Source of the DNA: a bacterium
Lineage (GTDB): Bacteria; Myxococcota_A; Bradymonadia; UBA7976; UBA1532
Assembly: GCA_030426085.1 (NCBI GenBank)
Contig: JAUHYW010000067.1
Coordinates: forward strand, 1-60,040
Length of the DNA: 60,040 nt
Reading direction: 5' to 3'
Shown piece by piece: positions 30,932 through 38,619 of the stretch; within the stretch, counting starts at the first letter, position 1, and the number at the start of each line of letters is the position of its first letter. Both the position numbers and the translations under genes were made by a program. The notes under the pieces are model-generated. The model saw nothing but the letters and a program-made list of their open reading frames with translations, ran no database searches and was not told where the DNA came from.

Positions 30932-31047
30932 GGGTCTCCTCCATTGCATGACACGACTCGTGGATAGCACGAACCGGGGGGCGGCGGCAGGCCACAAGGG
31001 CGTCGGCTGCGGTTTCATCGGGCGGGCCGGTGGGGCATCCTGGCTCC

Positions 31048-34000
31048 ATGGATCTGGCCGCCCTCGCCCGCCGACCGCTCGCCGAGCAATGTGCCCGGCT
31101 CGCTCGCCTGATCGACCCGACGCCCCCCCCGGGCCTGCTCGCTGCGCTGGCCCGCTGGCCCGACCCGGCGCCGCTGGCCCACGCGATCGAGCGGGCCCTC
31201 GCCGGCGGCTGCGTGCCCCCCGACCTGGCCCCGGCGCTGGCCGCCGCGCCCGACGCCCACCTGGGGCGCGTCCTGCGGGCGCTGCCCGGAGACCACCCGT
31301 CGAGCCTCCGGGCGCCGTTGATCGACCGGGTCGTCGAGGCGCTGGACGCCTTGCCCTTCGAGCGGGTGGCGGCGGCCTGCTTCCTGCTGCGGTGGATCGG
31401 CCGGGCCGACCCCGAGCGGGGCGCGGCGCTGGCCCGGGACGCGTTCGAGGCCGCCCGGGCCGCGGTGGCCGTCGAGCCCGAGGCGATCCCCGACGCGACG
31501 CTCCTGCGGGTGCCCGGCCGGGCCTGCGCCGAGCTGACCCGGGCGGCGAGCCGGGCGGGGCACGCCGCCCGGTGGCAGGCCCGCTCGAGGGCGTTCGCCG
31601 CGGCGACGCTCGCCGGGCTCCAGAGCCAGCCGAAGTCGCTGTCCCAGATGGGGGCCGAGGATCTGTTGTCCCAGCGGGTCTACACCGACCCGGGCCACTT
31701 CCTGATGGAGCTGATCCAGAACGCCGAGGACGCCGACGCGCGGACGTGGCGGCTGGCGGTCGAGCCCGAGCGGCTGGTGGTCCGTCACGACGGCGTGCCG
31801 TTCGACGCCCGGGACGTCGTGGGCGTGCTGTCGATCGGCCAGACGACCAAGTCGGCCGCCCGCATCGGCTTCTTCGGGGTGGGCTTCAAGTCGGTCTATG
31901 CCATCACCGACCGCCCGCGGGTGCGCTCGGGCCCGTTCGACTTCGAAATCGCCGATGTCAGCATCCCCCGGCGCATCGATGATCCCGAGGTGGAGCAGGG
32001 GACCCGCCTCGATCTGCCGCTGAGGGCGCCCGACGACCCCCGGCTGGGCTGGCGGGCCATCGCGACGCGGGCCGAGGGGCTGCCGGCGGCCCTGCTGCTG
32101 ACCCTGCGCCACATCCGCCGGATGGAGGTCGAGGTCGGCGGGCGCAGCCGGATCGTGGAGCGGGTCGAGACGGGCGCCCCGGGCGAGGTGCTGCTGCGCG
32201 ACGGCGCCGACGGGGCCCGCTGGCTGGTGCTCGGCGAGTCGGATCCGGTGGACGGTACGCTGGTGGCGGTGCCGCTCGATGACCAGGGCCAGCCGACGCC
32301 GATGCCCGCCGGGGCCCCGACCGTCTTCTGCTTCCTGCCCACCCGCGATCGGCCGGGGCTGCGGATCATGGTGCACGCCCGCTTTCCGCTGCCGGTCGAC
32401 CGGGAGCGGGTCGACGTCGGCGCGCCGAAGACCCGGGCCGCGCTGCGCCGGGCGGGCGCGCTGCTGTTCGAGGCCGCCGAGCGGGCGCATCCGTGGGCCG
32501 TGCTGCGGCTCCTGCCCCTGCCGGGGGAGGTGCAGCCCCCGATCTGGGAGGACGTGCGGATCGGGTTCGCCGAGGCGGCCGGCGCGCGCCCGTGGATCCC
32601 GACGCCGGGCGCCGGTCGGGTGGATCTGGCCCGGGCCCGGCGCGCGGAGGCGGCGCTGGCGGCGGCGCTGGGCGACATCGCGCTGCCCGACGGCGGGCGC
32701 CCGATCCACGCCCCCGACGCCCGGGCCGACGCCATGCTCGCTGCGCTCGGCGCGCCGCGGTTGACGGCTGCCGACTTGATCGAGCTGATCGACCACGCGG
32801 CGGGCGCCGGCCGGGCCGAGCACCTGACCTCGGCGCTGCCCGAGATCCTCGCGGCGCTGGCCGCCGCGCCCGAGCTGAGCCGCAACGCGGACGCGTGGGC
32901 CGACGCGCCGATCGCCCTCGACGCCCACGGCGCCTGGCGCCCGCCCCGCGCGCTGGCCCGATGCCCGGCGCGCCTCCGACCGTTCTTCGCCCACCGCCCG
33001 CTGCTCGCGCCCGCCCTGGACGACACGCCCCGCCTCGCGCCGCTGTGGATCGCGCTGGGCCTCGTCCGGCTGGATGACGCCGCCGTGGCCGACGCGCTGC
33101 GCGACCGGGAGACCGGGCCGGCCATCTGCGCCCGGGTGCCGGCCGGCGTCCTCGAGTGGATGGCCGACCAGCCGCCGGACCGCCTCGTCGGGCTGAGCCA
33201 TCTGGTGGTCGTGCCCGACGAGCGCGGCGCCCTGCGCCCGATCGCCGGCGGGGCCGATCTGCCGCCGGTGGGGCCGCTCGCCGCCTGGGCCGAGCGCTGG
33301 CCCCGGGCCCGCTCGCCGCTGGTCGCCCGCTCGATCGCCGAGCGGTTCGGCCCGACGCTGCTCGCGCTCGGCGCCCGGCGCCTGGACATCGGCCGGCTCC
33401 TCGACGGGGTGGCCGGGGCCGGGCCTGTCCCTGCCGGCTCGGCGCTGGACGCGCTGCACGGCGTGCTCGATCGGCTGGCGGCCGACCTGAGCCCCCGGCT
33501 GGCCGAACGCCTCGCCCGGGCGCCGATCTTCACCGATGTGCACGGCACCGACCGGCCTCTGAGCGGCCCGCGGCGGGCGATCGTGGCCGAGTCGGACGAG
33601 CTGCGCAGCTTGCTGCCCGACGGGCCGTGGCTCGTCGACGGCCTGCGGAGGGCCCGGCACGTCGCGGTGATCGACCCCCCGACCGTGGGCCCGCTCGACG
33701 CGGTGCGGGGTCTGTTCGAGCCGTCGGCCGCGCTGTACGCCGAGCCGGGCAGCGCGCGCTGGCGCCGGCTGGTGGCGTGGGCGATCGCCCACGGGCCGCC
33801 GCTCGACGACGCGCTCAAGAGCCGCCTGCGCGCGGCGCCGATCTGGGCCGGCGGGGATCAGCGGGCGCCGCTCGATGCGCTGCGCGCGCGGCCCGAGAGC
33901 TCCGCGTGGGCCACGCTCTACGACACCTGGGATCGCTGGCCGCCGCCCACCGACGAGGCCCGGGCGCTGTCAGCGGCGCTGGGGCTCGCCGAGCGGGGGG

Positions 34001-37000
34001 ACGCGGGCCGGCGGCTCATCGCCGATCTGAAGTGGATGCACACCGAGGATCCGCACGGGGCGTGGCTCGACGGGCCGGCGCTGCCCGAGGCGCTGGCCGA
34101 GCTCGGCCGGCGCTCGGAGCCCGACGCGCTGCGCCCGCTGGCCGAGCTGGCGATCCACCCCGACGCGGCGGGCGCGCGGCGGCCCCTCGGCGACGCGCTC
34201 CGGTCCGATCCACCGTGGCGGGCCATCCTGGCCGACGGCGCGCGCCCGCTGCTCGACGCGGGCTGGCAGGCGCGGATCGAGCCGCTGCTGGAGCGCCTGA
34301 GCGTCCCCCGACACGGCCTCGAAGCCGCGGTCGCCTTCGCCGAGACCGATCCGGCGTTCCCCGAGGCGCGCGACGCGCTGAGGGCGGCCCTCGCCGACGC
34401 GGGCGGCCCGTGGGGTGCGGGGCTGACCGGCCGCATCTCGGCGCTGCCGCTGTGGCCCTCCGACGGGCGCTTCGTCCCAGCCACCGCCGTCGTGCCCCCC
34501 GGCCGGCTGGGTGCGCTGGCCGGGCTGCCGGTCGGCGCGCTGGCGGCGCAGGTTGACCCCAGCGCCGCCGAGCAGGCCGACCGGCTGGCCGACGCGCTCG
34601 ACTTCGCGTCCGTCGGCGCGCTCCTCGCCGAGCGGGTGGCAGCCGAAGCCGTGGCCGGCGAGCCGCTGGACGCGCAGGCGCCGTGGCTCTCGTCGGTGGA
34701 GGCCGTCGCCGCCGTGCGCCGGGCGCTCGTGGCCGAAGGCCAGGCGATGGACGCGCTGCCGCTCCGGGTCGACCTCGACGGGCGGCTGGTCGTCGGGCCG
34801 CTGTTCGACGCCTCGCGCGACGTCCGGCATCTAGTGGGTCGTCCGCGAGATCCGCATGACGATTCCACGGCCCTTTCACCCCCGCTCGGCGTTGGTTCTC
34901 CTCGACGTGCCCCTGGCACGCCTTCGTCGGCCCGCCTTGATCGGGGTCGAAATGACTCGCGGGCTCATCACGCGGACTTCGCGTCCGCCCCACTGGCCGC
35001 CCGCTTGCCGATCCGGGCGCGTATCACCCACGCCGACGACCCCGGCGGCGCGCCGCTGCCCGCCCGCTGGCTGCTGTCCGACCTGGCCGACGCGCAGCGG
35101 GAGGCGGGCCCGATCGACGATCACCCGGTCCTCGCCGAGCAGAGCGCCCGACGGGCGCTGTATCGCTGGATCGAGGCCGTCGCCGACGAGATCGAGGCCG
35201 ACGAGCAGGCCCGCGGGCAGCTCGGGCGGGCGCCGGTCTGGCCCACGACGGGCGGCACGCTGCGCGCCGCGCGGGAGCTGATGCCGGTCGATGATCCGCT
35301 GGCGGACGACGCCGCGGTGGATCCGGCGCTCGACTGGGTGCCGGCGGACGAGATCCCCGCCGAGGTCCGCCGCCGGCTCCGCGGGTGGTTCCGGCTCGAC
35401 GCCCGCCGGCTGCGCACCGCGGTGGAGCACCTCGTCGACGCCCACCGGCAGATCGACGATCCCGCCCGCTCGGCCCGGCTGCTGACCCTGCTCGCCCGCC
35501 TCCTGACGGCGGCCGAGAGCGAGGAGGCCCCGCTCGACGCGCTGGTGGCCCGCTTCAAGCTGCATCGGCGGCTCAAGGTGGCCGACGCCGACGGGCGATT
35601 CGACCGACCCAAGGCGCTGCTCGCGCCGACCCAAGCCGCTCAAGCCAAGCGGATCGCGCTGTTTCACCCCGACCCGCCGCGCCGACCGCACCCGGCCTAC
35701 CCCGAGGCCGTCCGACGCTTGCTGCGGGCGGCGGGCGCCGATGTCGACCTCTCCGATGACGCCTTGAGCGCGGCCCTCGACGCCCCGGTGCCCGGGCTCG
35801 ACGCCGGCCTCGCCCGGGTGGCCTACCTCGGCGCCCGGGCGGCGGATGCGCCGGCGCTGATCGAGCGGCTCGATCTCGGGGCGCGCCCCTGGCTCTTCGA
35901 TCGCGACGGGACGCCGTGCGCGCCGGCCGATCTCGACTGGCCCGATCCCGATCTGGACGCGCTCATCGGCTCCGAGGGCGGGCGGCGGCCCCACCCGGCG
36001 GTGGTGCACGGCCTGCCGCCCGCCGTGCTCGCCCGGCTGCCGGTGCGGACCGCGGCCGACGCCGATCCCCACGCGGTCGCCCGGCATCAGCCCGAGGGCA
36101 CGCCGTTGCCGATGGCCGTGCTGCGCTGGTTCGACGACGGCCTCGACGCGCGGCGCATCCGCCCCGACGACGCCCGCGCGGCGCTCGCCGGGCGCCGGAT
36201 CTTCGGCGCCGACGACGGGCGCTGCCGCCCCCCCGAGGCCCTGGTGCGCGATCTGCCCGCCCCCGGCCTCGGACGCCGCCGGAGCGGCTTCTCCGACGGG
36301 CGCCCCGTGCCCCGCCTGATCGGCGCGCTGGGTATCCCGGCCACGCCCGACGTCTCGGTGTGGCTGGGGCTCGCCGAAGAGATCGCCGCCGACGCCCGCC
36401 GCGCCGACCTCCTGGCCGACGAGCCCGAGCTGCGCGAGGTGCTGCCCCGTATCGTGGGCCGGCTCGCGCTGGCCGGCGCCTCCCGCCCGGCGGCGGTCCT
36501 CGCGACGACGCCGCGGGGCGAGCGGATCGTACCGATCGATGATCGCGCGCTCACGATGCCCTGGCCGCCGACGCTCGCCGCCGCAGCCGGCCCGGCGGAC
36601 CTCGCGCTGATCGCGCTCGACGCGCCCCCCGAGTCACTGTCGAGCGCCGCCACCCGTTGGGGCGTCCCGACGGTCGAGGCCCGCTGGCGCCCGTCGTCGA
36701 CCCCGGCCCCGGCGGGGCGACCGCTGCCCGATCTCACCCGGACATTGACCGATCTCTGGGCCCGTCTGCCGCGCGTGCTCGACGGGGCGCCGGGCGATCC
36801 ACCCACCGCGCGCGAGGTCGCCGACGCCGACGCCCCGGGCCGCATCGGGCGGGCGAACGTGCCCTGGCCCCGCACCGCGCGGTGCGTCGACGGCGTGCTG
36901 TGTGTCGCCGAGGGCGCCGGCGCCGACGCCATCGCCGACGCGCTGTGGCGCGACCGCCTGCGCCCGGACGACGCGCCGACCGAAGCCGTCGCCCGGCTCG

Positions 37001-38619
37001 CGCGCCTGATCGCGTGCGGGCACGGCGCGGCGATGGATCTGCTGCTCGACGCGGAGGGTCTCCCCCGGACGGGCCCGCCGCCGCGACCGACCCGCACGAC
37101 GAACCCGATGGAGGAGCCGGCCGCGCCTCCCCGCTCGACCGCTCCACGCTCGGCCGTGGAGCCCGCATCCGCAGAGCCCGAGACCCCGCCGCCCGAGCCG
37201 CCGGCCGCCGAGCCCGCACCCGACGAGGACCGCCTGCTCGACCGGCTCAAGCGCTGGTGGCGTGGCGATGAGCCGACCCATCCGCCGCGTCCCCCGGATC
37301 CGCCCACGCCCCGGCGCCCCGAGCCGCCGCGCCCCGATCCGCCGCGTCGGCCTCCGCCCCGGGCCCCGCAGCGCGACGACGACCCCGGCTTTCAGCCGCC
37401 CGATACGAGCCGCTTCTTCCAGCCCCAGCGCGCGGTCGAGCCTCAGCTCCGCGCCGATCCCAACTGGCTCGCCACCCGCCAGACCGCGACCGATATCGGC
37501 TTCGCCTTCGCCCCGGGCCGGCTGGCCGGGGTCCACCAGTACGGGCCGGCGCTCATCACCGACCGCTTCGATCCCCGCAGCCGCCGCTGGGTCGCCGCCG
37601 CGATCGACCCCGAGTGGTCCGCGCCGCCCGCCGGGGGTGGCTTCCGGGTCGCGTTCACCGGGCGGCTGCCCACCGGCGAGGCCGCGCTGGCGGTGCCGCT
37701 CTTCGGCCGGGTGTCGGCGCTCGACGCGCCCGACGCCCGCCGCTTGACGCGCGACGAGGCCCGCCCGCTGCTGGTGATGCCCCGCCCGACCGACGTGCGC
37801 TACACGGTCGACCTCGCCCGCCCGCCGCGCTACGTGGACGCCGATCCGCCCCGCGTCGCCGGCCTGCTCGCGCCCACCGCGCCCGACGACGAGCTGCCCG
37901 CCGAGTGCCACGATCTGCTCGGCGGCCTGCTCGACGCGCCGCCGCGGGCCCGGCTCTCGGGCATCGGCCAGTTCGTGCGGCGGCACTATCGCTACGACCC
38001 GAGCTACCTCGAAGACCCGGCCCACGCCCGCTGGCTGCGCCGGGTGACCCGGGGGCGGCCGAACGTACACCTCGCCGCGCTGCACGCCGGCCGCGACGGG
38101 CGGCACCTGGGCGCGGGGGTGTGCTACGAGCTCAACGCGCTGGTCTGCGAGCTGGCCCGGCGGGCGGGCATCCCCGCCGCGATCGCCACCGGCTGGACCT
38201 TCGATCGGGGGTGGATCGATCAGCCCGATCATCTGTGGGCGATGGCGCTGCTGGCGACCGGGGACGGGCCCCGCTGGATGCCGGTCGACGCCTCGACGAC
38301 CCACGAGGGCCGCCCGCTGCACGCGACGCCGCGCCCGCCGGGCCCGCACCGGGCGCAGGCGCCGCGCCAGGACCTCCGCCCGCCTCGCCCGGTGGATTGG
38401 ACCGACGTCGCGCCGCCGCCCGAGCGGCCCGGAGCCCCGCTGCGCGAGCTGCTGCGGGTCATCCGCCACGCGGAGCGGCTCGGCGAGGCGCCCGAACGGA
38501 GCGAAGCCGAGCGCCTCGCCGCCGCCCGAAGCCTGCTCACCGAGCCCGATCGGGCCCGAGCGCTGCTGGCGGTGCTCGACGGGGGCGGGGCAGGGGAGCG
38601 CGACCCGGAGGCCCGCTAA
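31048..38619 (+). CDS. Giant sacsin-type GHKL ATPase fused to a transglutaminase-like domain
   Basis: About 2523 residues with no signal peptide, so cytoplasmic. Residues 195-310 form a sacsin/NOV-type Hsp90-like (GHKL) ATP site: N-box FLMELIQNAEDAD, G1 HDGVPFD, and G2 IGFFGVGFKSVY, the family signature. A long Ala/Leu/Arg-rich region of sacsin-repeat-like alpha/beta sequence follows (about 310-2000). A Pro-rich linker (about 2007-2125) leads to a C-terminal transglutaminase-like fold. Its catalytic triad reads Cys2359 (GAGVCYELNAL), His2395 (PDHLWAM) and Asp2414 (MPVDAST). Such folds are thiol proteases, peptide-crosslinkers or deamidases. The fusion of nucleotide-driven clamp and thiol enzyme is unfamiliar to me. 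Residues about 1262-1316 come from an inserted cruciform element. GTG 31030 is an alternative start; neither start has a good ribosome site. Stress chaperone or defence roles are both possible. Confidence 0.85.
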   Translation: MDLAALARRPLAEQCARLARLIDPTPPPGLLAALARWPDPAPLAHAIERALAGGCVPPDLAPALAAAPDAHLGRVLRALPGDHPSSLRAPLIDRVVEALDALPFERVAAACFLLRWIGRADPERGAALARDAFEAARAAVAVEPEAIPDATLLRVPGRACAELTRAASRAGHAARWQARSRAFAAATLAGLQSQPKSLSQMGAEDLLSQRVYTDPGHFLMELIQNAEDADARTWRLAVEPERLVVRHDGVPFDARDVVGVLSIGQTTKSAARIGFFGVGFKSVYAITDRPRVRSGPFDFEIADVSIPRRIDDPEVEQGTRLDLPLRAPDDPRLGWRAIATRAEGLPAALLLTLRHIRRMEVEVGGRSRIVERVETGAPGEVLLRDGADGARWLVLGESDPVDGTLVAVPLDDQGQPTPMPAGAPTVFCFLPTRDRPGLRIMVHARFPLPVDRERVDVGAPKTRAALRRAGALLFEAAERAHPWAVLRLLPLPGEVQPPIWEDVRIGFAEAAGARPWIPTPGAGRVDLARARRAEAALAAALGDIALPDGGRPIHAPDARADAMLAALGAPRLTAADLIELIDHAAGAGRAEHLTSALPEILAALAAAPELSRNADAWADAPIALDAHGAWRPPRALARCPARLRPFFAHRPLLAPALDDTPRLAPLWIALGLVRLDDAAVADALRDRETGPAICARVPAGVLEWMADQPPDRLVGLSHLVVVPDERGALRPIAGGADLPPVGPLAAWAERWPRARSPLVARSIAERFGPTLLALGARRLDIGRLLDGVAGAGPVPAGSALDALHGVLDRLAADLSPRLAERLARAPIFTDVHGTDRPLSGPRRAIVAESDELRSLLPDGPWLVDGLRRARHVAVIDPPTVGPLDAVRGLFEPSAALYAEPGSARWRRLVAWAIAHGPPLDDALKSRLRAAPIWAGGDQRAPLDALRARPESSAWATLYDTWDRWPPPTDEARALSAALGLAERGDAGRRLIADLKWMHTEDPHGAWLDGPALPEALAELGRRSEPDALRPLAELAIHPDAAGARRPLGDALRSDPPWRAILADGARPLLDAGWQARIEPLLERLSVPRHGLEAAVAFAETDPAFPEARDALRAALADAGGPWGAGLTGRISALPLWPSDGRFVPATAVVPPGRLGALAGLPVGALAAQVDPSAAEQADRLADALDFASVGALLAERVAAEAVAGEPLDAQAPWLSSVEAVAAVRRALVAEGQAMDALPLRVDLDGRLVVGPLFDASRDVRHLVGRPRDPHDDSTALSPPLGVGSPRRAPGTPSSARLDRGRNDSRAHHADFASAPLAARLPIRARITHADDPGGAPLPARWLLSDLADAQREAGPIDDHPVLAEQSARRALYRWIEAVADEIEADEQARGQLGRAPVWPTTGGTLRAARELMPVDDPLADDAAVDPALDWVPADEIPAEVRRRLRGWFRLDARRLRTAVEHLVDAHRQIDDPARSARLLTLLARLLTAAESEEAPLDALVARFKLHRRLKVADADGRFDRPKALLAPTQAAQAKRIALFHPDPPRRPHPAYPEAVRRLLRAAGADVDLSDDALSAALDAPVPGLDAGLARVAYLGARAADAPALIERLDLGARPWLFDRDGTPCAPADLDWPDPDLDALIGSEGGRRPHPAVVHGLPPAVLARLPVRTAADADPHAVARHQPEGTPLPMAVLRWFDDGLDARRIRPDDARAALAGRRIFGADDGRCRPPEALVRDLPAPGLGRRRSGFSDGRPVPRLIGALGIPATPDVSVWLGLAEEIAADARRADLLADEPELREVLPRIVGRLALAGASRPAAVLATTPRGERIVPIDDRALTMPWPPTLAAAAGPADLALIALDAPPESLSSAATRWGVPTVEARWRPSSTPAPAGRPLPDLTRTLTDLWARLPRVLDGAPGDPPTAREVADADAPGRIGRANVPWPRTARCVDGVLCVAEGAGADAIADALWRDRLRPDDAPTEAVARLARLIACGHGAAMDLLLDAEGLPRTGPPPRPTRTTNPMEEPAAPPRSTAPRSAVEPASAEPETPPPEPPAAEPAPDEDRLLDRLKRWWRGDEPTHPPRPPDPPTPRRPEPPRPDPPRRPPPRAPQRDDDPGFQPPDTSRFFQPQRAVEPQLRADPNWLATRQTATDIGFAFAPGRLAGVHQYGPALITDRFDPRSRRWVAAAIDPEWSAPPAGGGFRVAFTGRLPTGEAALAVPLFGRVSALDAPDARRLTRDEARPLLVMPRPTDVRYTVDLARPPRYVDADPPRVAGLLAPTAPDDELPAECHDLLGGLLDAPPRARLSGIGQFVRRHYRYDPSYLEDPAHARWLRRVTRGRPNVHLAALHAGRDGRHLGAGVCYELNALVCELARRAGIPAAIATGWTFDRGWIDQPDHLWAMALLATGDGPRWMPVDASTTHEGRPLHATPRPPGPHRAQAPRQDLRPPRPVDWTDVAPPPERPGAPLRELLRVIRHAERLGEAPERSEAERLAAARSLLTEPDRARALLAVLDGGGAGERDPEAR
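34831..34996. mobile_element. MITE-like 166-bp imperfect palindrome inserted in frame
   Basis: The ends are about 30-bp imperfect inverted repeats: GTGGGTCGTCCGCGAG from 34834 against GTGGGGCGGACGCGAA read from the other strand at 34993, with 22 of 29 positions identical. Inner arms continue (CCACGGCCCTTTCACCCC on the left), and a perfect CGTGCC-CCT-GGCACG hairpin sits exactly at the centre (34906-34920). The segment is less GC-rich and encodes Ser/Thr/Asn/His-rich sequence foreign to the flanking Ala/Leu/Asp-rich protein. No clear target duplication remains. There is no transposase, so it would have moved in trans or is a REP-like relic. Confidence 0.6.

Follow-up and report, generated by a model that had tools for sequence, protein, structure and literature searches.

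A probable IS630-like miniature transposon carried in frame by a giant gene belongs to a phylum-wide hairpin superfamily of Myxococcota

In-frame palindromic insertions in bacterial genes are best known from Rickettsia. The Rickettsia palindromic elements (RPE) are described as palindromic repeats of ~105-150 bp that form long stem-loops and lie in frame in unrelated genes (PMC2229807, PMC10969869). Hairpin MITEs that duplicate a TA target are also already known, among them RUP, ERIC and the Correia elements (PMC10969869, PMC2229807, PMC2759123, PMC3049150). RUP of Streptococcus pneumoniae is described as a non-autonomous element of 107 bp with TA at its ends and terminal repeats like those of a resident IS630 (PMC3049150, PMC2229807). 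ERIC, or RU-1, is described as an enterobacterial imperfect palindrome of fixed size (127 bp) that duplicates TA and occasionally lies in coding frames (PMC2759123, PMC2229807). The units of REPs are given as 20-40 bp (PMC3733652).

The window analysed here is a stretch of 60,040 nucleotides that forms one contig (C157) of a 10.1-Mb draft genome in 178 contigs (G000). It contains a giant gene whose product has, near its C terminus, a transglutaminase-like core (PF01841, E 2e-8), and within this gene the original prediction had placed a MITE-like palindromic insert kept in frame. The features of the locus are as follows, with the minus strand of the element, the structured one, named canonical.

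31030..38619, plus strand: host gene, 2529-aa product, with a sacsin-type domain (PF25794, E 1.2e-11) near the N terminus
34831..34992, plus strand: codons 1268-1321, 54 residues absent in the homologue, from the homologue alignment
34832..34833, no strand: left target-site copy TA, inside CTAG, from sequence and flank comparison
34834..34993, minus (canonical) strand: hairpin element of type A, 160 bp, edges set by other copies
34834..34868, no strand: outer arm on the left of the gene side, which varies between subfamilies
34869..34959, minus strand: conserved core; covariance model R1 scores it at 100.9 bits, and the runner-up in the window at 18.8 bits
34904..34922, minus strand: central hairpin GGCGTGCC-AGG-GGCACGTC of the canonical strand
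34960..34993, no strand: outer arm on the right of the gene side
34994..34995, no strand: right target-site copy TG, presumed to be an altered TA, from sequence and flank comparison

A search of the same genome for other copies of the predicted insert recovered seven further full-length copies. When all eight, including that of the window (88-98% identity), were aligned with their flanks, agreement ran from GTGG to CCAC over 159-160 bp, with none beyond. The copies are short and dispersed, have unique flanks and are without a transposase, and terminal inverted repeats are present in the element, as in MITEs. A homologue of the giant protein in a sister species (L055; JAUHXC010000002.1, G001:C26) aligned from end to end, with identity at 1400 of 2441 aligned residues, and showed a gap of 54 residues exactly at the inserted segment. 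The missing residues correspond to 162 bp, that is, the element plus 2 bp. An in-frame protein insertion had been predicted at residues 1262-1316 (about 55 residues); the insertion stands, but the alignment places it at residues 1268-1321. Among gaps of at least 8 residues, to which this comparison was confined, no second internal gap was present on the side of the giant protein. In an independent search, the matches covered residues 6-281 and 332-567 of the query but left out the interval between them.

Joining the flanks of the element in the window gives CAT CTA GCC (His-Leu-Ala), compared with Phe-Leu-Ala in the homologue, and an empty site of CTAG. The 162-bp gap and the CTAG at the joined flanks together indicate that a 160-bp element and one duplicated TA entered CTAG. 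A TA target, terminal inverted repeats, the absence of any coding capacity of its own and an empty site all accord with the predicted MITE-like in-frame insertion. Neither outcome that the original prediction had named as refuting it occurred, since the sister-species homologue lacks the residues and further copies exist in the genome. A weak R1 match also lies in the homologous locus, ~55 bp from the empty site (L055:11878-11968; 20.7 bits, E 0.017), and is probably due to chance.

The long palindrome described in the original prediction was recovered, with 44-nt arms at 34826-34869 and 34958-35001 that are 70% complementary, while several of its details required correction. There is a palindromic centre, but the edges of the element place it at 34913.5 and not at 34913. 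The central hairpin has a stem, but one that is perfect over 6 bp only (CGTGCC/GGCACG). GC content, measured in 100-bp windows, does fall to 0.66-0.71 over the element against mostly 0.73-0.84 nearby; the fall is not confined to the element, however, as positions 35550-35649 are also at 0.70. When folding was computed for single strands only, the minus strand reached -104.7 kcal/mol (z -7.6) and the gene strand -82.1 kcal/mol (z -3.4), each beating all of 200 dinucleotide shuffles. The description of the insert as cruciform-forming is unsupported, and the strand bias of the mismatches, given below, points to one folded strand and not to a two-strand cruciform. Rfam gave no matches in the window at the gathering score, and at E up to 1 its models matched eight loci only as a tRNA, a plastid UTR and a snoRNA, all outside the hairpins.

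The reading frame of the giant gene stays open through the element, as had been claimed. Four of six frames are without stops in most type-A copies, so that little can be concluded from an open frame by itself; the frame survived because 162 is divisible by 3 and because of these stop-free frames. The resulting 54-residue insert is rich in Pro, Arg and Ser. Three of the eight type-A copies lie in frame within genes, namely the giant gene, a Cas3 gene (L002) and a 1054-aa acidic ORF (L004) without a Pfam family match; in each of the three, the gene reads the element's non-canonical strand, in the same frame and with the same peptide. Alignment of the L002 Cas3 with the solved Cas3 4q2c halts at residue 501, where the element starts, and resumes at residue 604, with 102 query residues in the interval against 43 in the 4q2c chain; the empty-site comparison with a homologue was made for the giant gene. 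Elements of subfamily C, at 162 bp plus 2, would break the frame, which argues that element length is not tuned to the reading frame, and most copies of subfamilies other than A appear intergenic. Counting copies within ORFs by ORF length was abandoned as unreliable at 75% GC, where the ORF translation at L133 is Arg-rich nonsense.

The element is one member of a structured hairpin superfamily that extends across the phylum Myxococcota. The outer arms, which double as terminal repeats, are particular to each subfamily and surround an inner core common to all. The sister genome (G001) holds one full-length relative of the element and several elements that share the 53-nt centre only, with arms that are unrelated yet paired. 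Between types A and B, 46 of 53 centre bases are common, and the outer arms are 57-59% identical (51% for shuffled sequences). The covariance model R1, which represents the hairpin core and was built from 14 sequences, gave 26 matches in G000, 32 in G001, 39 in G006, 18 in G007, 9 in G008, 5 in G003 and 1 in G005, and none in 11 further genomes (E up to 0.01, with scoring of 150 candidates in each genome). Of the 26 G000 matches, at least one (L146, 29.4 bits) looks like plain coding sequence and was set aside. As a control, R1 was run on 126 kb made up of the window, homologues and IS loci; apart from the element, at 100.9 bits, no match exceeded 20.7 bits. Within the class, Bradymonadia, 24 of the 57 genomes contained relatives (E up to 1e-4), as did 110 of 377 genomes and 82 of 234 genera of the phylum (E up to 1e-5). 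Elements measured 156-166 bp (65 copies). At the loci compared, copies within a genome were mostly 94-99% identical over ~160-175 bp with unrelated flanks, which indicates recent movement. Searches of phages, plasmids and viral contigs with one core and one pattern, able to detect near relatives only, gave no match. Open-licence literature, searched by title and abstract start, contained no evident description of the hairpin family.

Several members and assemblies showed further peculiarities. Two hairpin types of Persicimonas caeni, L113 and L120, have outer arms that are 92-100% alike and inner parts that are 74% identical, as if modules had been exchanged or homogenised. L147, L150 and L155 form a core subtype with seemingly unpaired outer arms, and the flanks of L155 look repetitive. 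Draft contigs (in G056, G008, G000:C77 and C13) often terminate within hairpins, which are assembly breakpoints; copy counts in drafts are therefore probably underestimates.

Although the outer arms diverge almost entirely from one subfamily to the next, they remain complementary. In an alignment (A3) of 57 members, 56 of them distinct, 93.5% of cells were paired and the covariation score was 0.777, in an alignment that was fitted to the model's own structure and so favours pairing; sliding the partner by 1-3 columns gave at most 0.109, and shuffling a mean of 0.191. Double changes were present in 26 of the 27 modelled pairs. Strand bias was measured after aligning the two arms of each element by Watson-Crick matches only, a procedure that gives G.T no advantage over A.C. 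For 38 of the 39 subfamilies (L147, with its unpaired outer arms, left out), G.T outnumbered A.C in the two arm bins by 69:26 and 56:16, or 125 to 42 in sum, and A.G outnumbered C.T by 119:11 and 57:2, or 176 to 13, although binomial p values are too optimistic for subfamilies that share ancestry. In the core bin the wobble bias was reversed (G.T 33 vs A.C 80), with A.G vs C.T at 168:7. Over the whole element, G.T and A.C did not differ significantly (161:134 in 39 subfamilies, from 55 of the 57 aligned hits, two without flanks being left out). At the centre, conserved unpaired purines adjoin the central stem and can be read as tandem G.A. The covariation and the one-sided mismatches of the arms argue that at some point the canonical strand folds by itself, and we infer that it has been selected to fold as a single strand, either RNA or ssDNA.

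Copies that stay in place seem to behave differently from lineages that spread. In a comparison of seven of the nine type-A members, those of equal length, with L002 as the reference, the five other copies of G000 showed 11 pairs preserved by a one-sided change, 12 pairs broken and none changed on both sides, and L032 of the sister species had two double changes. Orientation to neighbouring genes was unbiased (20:20 on the left, 22:23 on the right; confident calls among 96 copies, with the three in-gene copies and L146 omitted). Because in-place copies apparently drift and orientation is unbiased, selection seems, from these small numbers, to act on the spreading lineage and not on each copy.

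IS630 elements duplicate TA, and CTAG is a preferred target. Among 65 hairpin copies of families with definable ends, a set from which the pattern missed 4 of 8 type-B copies, the flanking dinucleotide was TA in 84 of 130 cases, often within CTAG, and the left and right dinucleotides were identical in 38 copies (permutation mean 28.9, p 0.0006). Six of these 38 identical pairs were not TA (CA, TG, GA), and the window copy itself has TA on one side and TG on the other. Flanking dinucleotides that are rich in TA and matched indicate a 2-bp duplication with a preference for TA. Two other targets were considered and rejected. An IS5-like 4-bp YTAR duplication conflicts with left and right 4-mers that mostly disagree and with a net insert of 162 = 160 + 2, and a stop-codon target was suggested by several copies that abut TAG stop codons, among them L007 and L032, but gave way to TA once more copies were compared.

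The original prediction had proposed looking for a transposase with matching ends; G000 has no hits to the IS630 family PF13358, but such a transposase was found in one relative, P. caeni. IS630 transposases were likewise not found in the sister genome or in 10 other hairpin-bearing genomes of the class, where drafts may lose repeats. In the class as a whole they occurred in 12 of 24 hairpin genomes and in 6 of 33 others (Fisher p 0.02, uncorrected for kinship). P. caeni carries five near-identical IS630 copies (L168, L170-L173) of ~1.16 kb in TTAA or TTAA-like sites. Their ends read AGTGCAAACAC..., and the right end has 27 of 31 terminal bases in common with hairpin L119 by a hand count from the printed sequences (27/38 in the computed comparison itself). 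Despite these similar ends, the IS630 differs from the hairpin in its length, in possessing a transposase and in lacking the hairpin core. In the same genome, neither an IS nor any other autonomous element with the AGTAAC ends of the commonest hairpins was found. At L170 and L173 (G047:C1 near 382848 and 8022180), an IS630 lies flush with a hairpin and TTAA is common to both, so that the target duplication of one element serves as the target of the next. L171 and L172 (G047:C1:6018402 and 6019558) are near-identical IS630 copies arranged head to tail, 1156 bp apart.

Among 12 IS630 loci of other genomes, inverted ends were clear in L167 (G006) and L225, with weaker candidates in L219 and L224. 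L167, which is IS630-like and 1519 bp long, has perfect inverted ends that lie in CTAG, and its stretch CACAGGGGTTT is similar to the end of L034, a hairpin from another genus. No scanned IS630 matched a hairpin of its own genome, the explicit search being that for the G032 hairpin end in L222 only. The sharing of ends in one genome, P. caeni, suggests that the hairpins are probably moved by IS630-type transposases supplied in trans.

Set beside the described systems, the element is a MITE with IS630-like target choice; what is new is a phylum-wide, covarying, strand-specific hairpin. Like RPEs, with which it was compared by description only, the type-A hairpin recurs in frame in protein genes. 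RPEs, however, come from another phylum, whereas the Myxococcota hairpins have a phylum-wide core with covarying arms; in addition, only 3/8 type-A copies are in frame and the other subfamilies are mostly intergenic. The hairpins resemble RUP in being short, non-autonomous and flanked by TA, and in that the end of L119 resembles a resident IS630, but the IS630 of RUP is a common resident, while a matching IS630 for the hairpins is present in one relative only. With ERIC, again by description only, they share an imperfect palindromic hairpin of fixed size, TA duplication and an occasional place in a coding frame, and differ in size and host (156-166 bp in Myxococcota against 127 bp in enterobacteria).

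We favour, with a probability of about 0.7, the reading that the insert is an in-frame, non-autonomous IS630/Tc1-mariner-like miniature transposon from the Myxococcota hairpin superfamily, with a selected single-strand fold. The 160-bp element entered the TA of CTAG in the giant gene, and duplication of TA on entry added 162 bp, or 54 codons, without a frame shift; as the frame entered is open, the protein carries a 54-residue insert. These steps are shown by the copies, the empty site in the homologue and the frame. Movement would be provided by IS630-type transposases in trans. The fold most likely serves the spread of the element itself, because in-place copies decay like neutral DNA and spreading lineages keep pairing; the folded strand may, for example, be recognised by a transposase or a host factor. 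A more tentative proposal is that of an ancient hairpin chassis, in which the single-strand fold and the conserved purine-mismatch core would be needed for mobility while the element swaps arms and rides different TA-specific transposases across the phylum; modular exchange of this kind would give the pattern of L113 and L120.

Other origins account for part of the evidence. A host-serving regulatory RNA spread by transposition, either an mRNA-stability element or a small RNA, would suit the strong RNA-like fold of one strand and the phylum-wide core, but it is unlikely given that orientation to neighbours is unbiased and that in-place copies have lost pairs in roughly as many cases as they have kept them. 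Template-switch correction is known for imperfect palindromes, and replication template switching that copies arm onto arm would yield double changes like those of L032, with the hairpin shape an unselected by-product. Such switching should be blind to strand, yet the arm mismatches are biased in both classes, and the conserved unpaired purines of the centre are left unexplained; we regard it as improbable. IS200/IS605-like transposases use a single folded strand. A REP/BIME-type element moved by such an enzyme would fit the single folded strand, and the left end GTGG slightly resembles the GTAG tag of REPs; units of 156-166 bp, against 20-40 bp for REPs (PMC3733652), ends that differ between subfamilies in place of a GTAG-type tag, and matched 2-bp flanks make this very improbable. 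Practically no weight is left for a segment native to the giant protein and encoded by a chance palindrome, which would explain the open frame but was ruled out by the gap in the homologue and the seven other full-length copies.

The miniature-transposon reading places an in-frame palindromic insertion in a GC-rich bacterium related to predatory ones, with the empty site visible in a homologue, and Cas3 provides a second clear case of in-frame insertion. The comparison exposes a phylum-wide mobile hairpin family that has no counterpart in Rfam, although its covariation matches a structured RNA's in strength. Should spread depend on the single-strand fold, DNA transposition would be linked to a folded RNA or ssDNA, a link that could be tested in a cultivable species.
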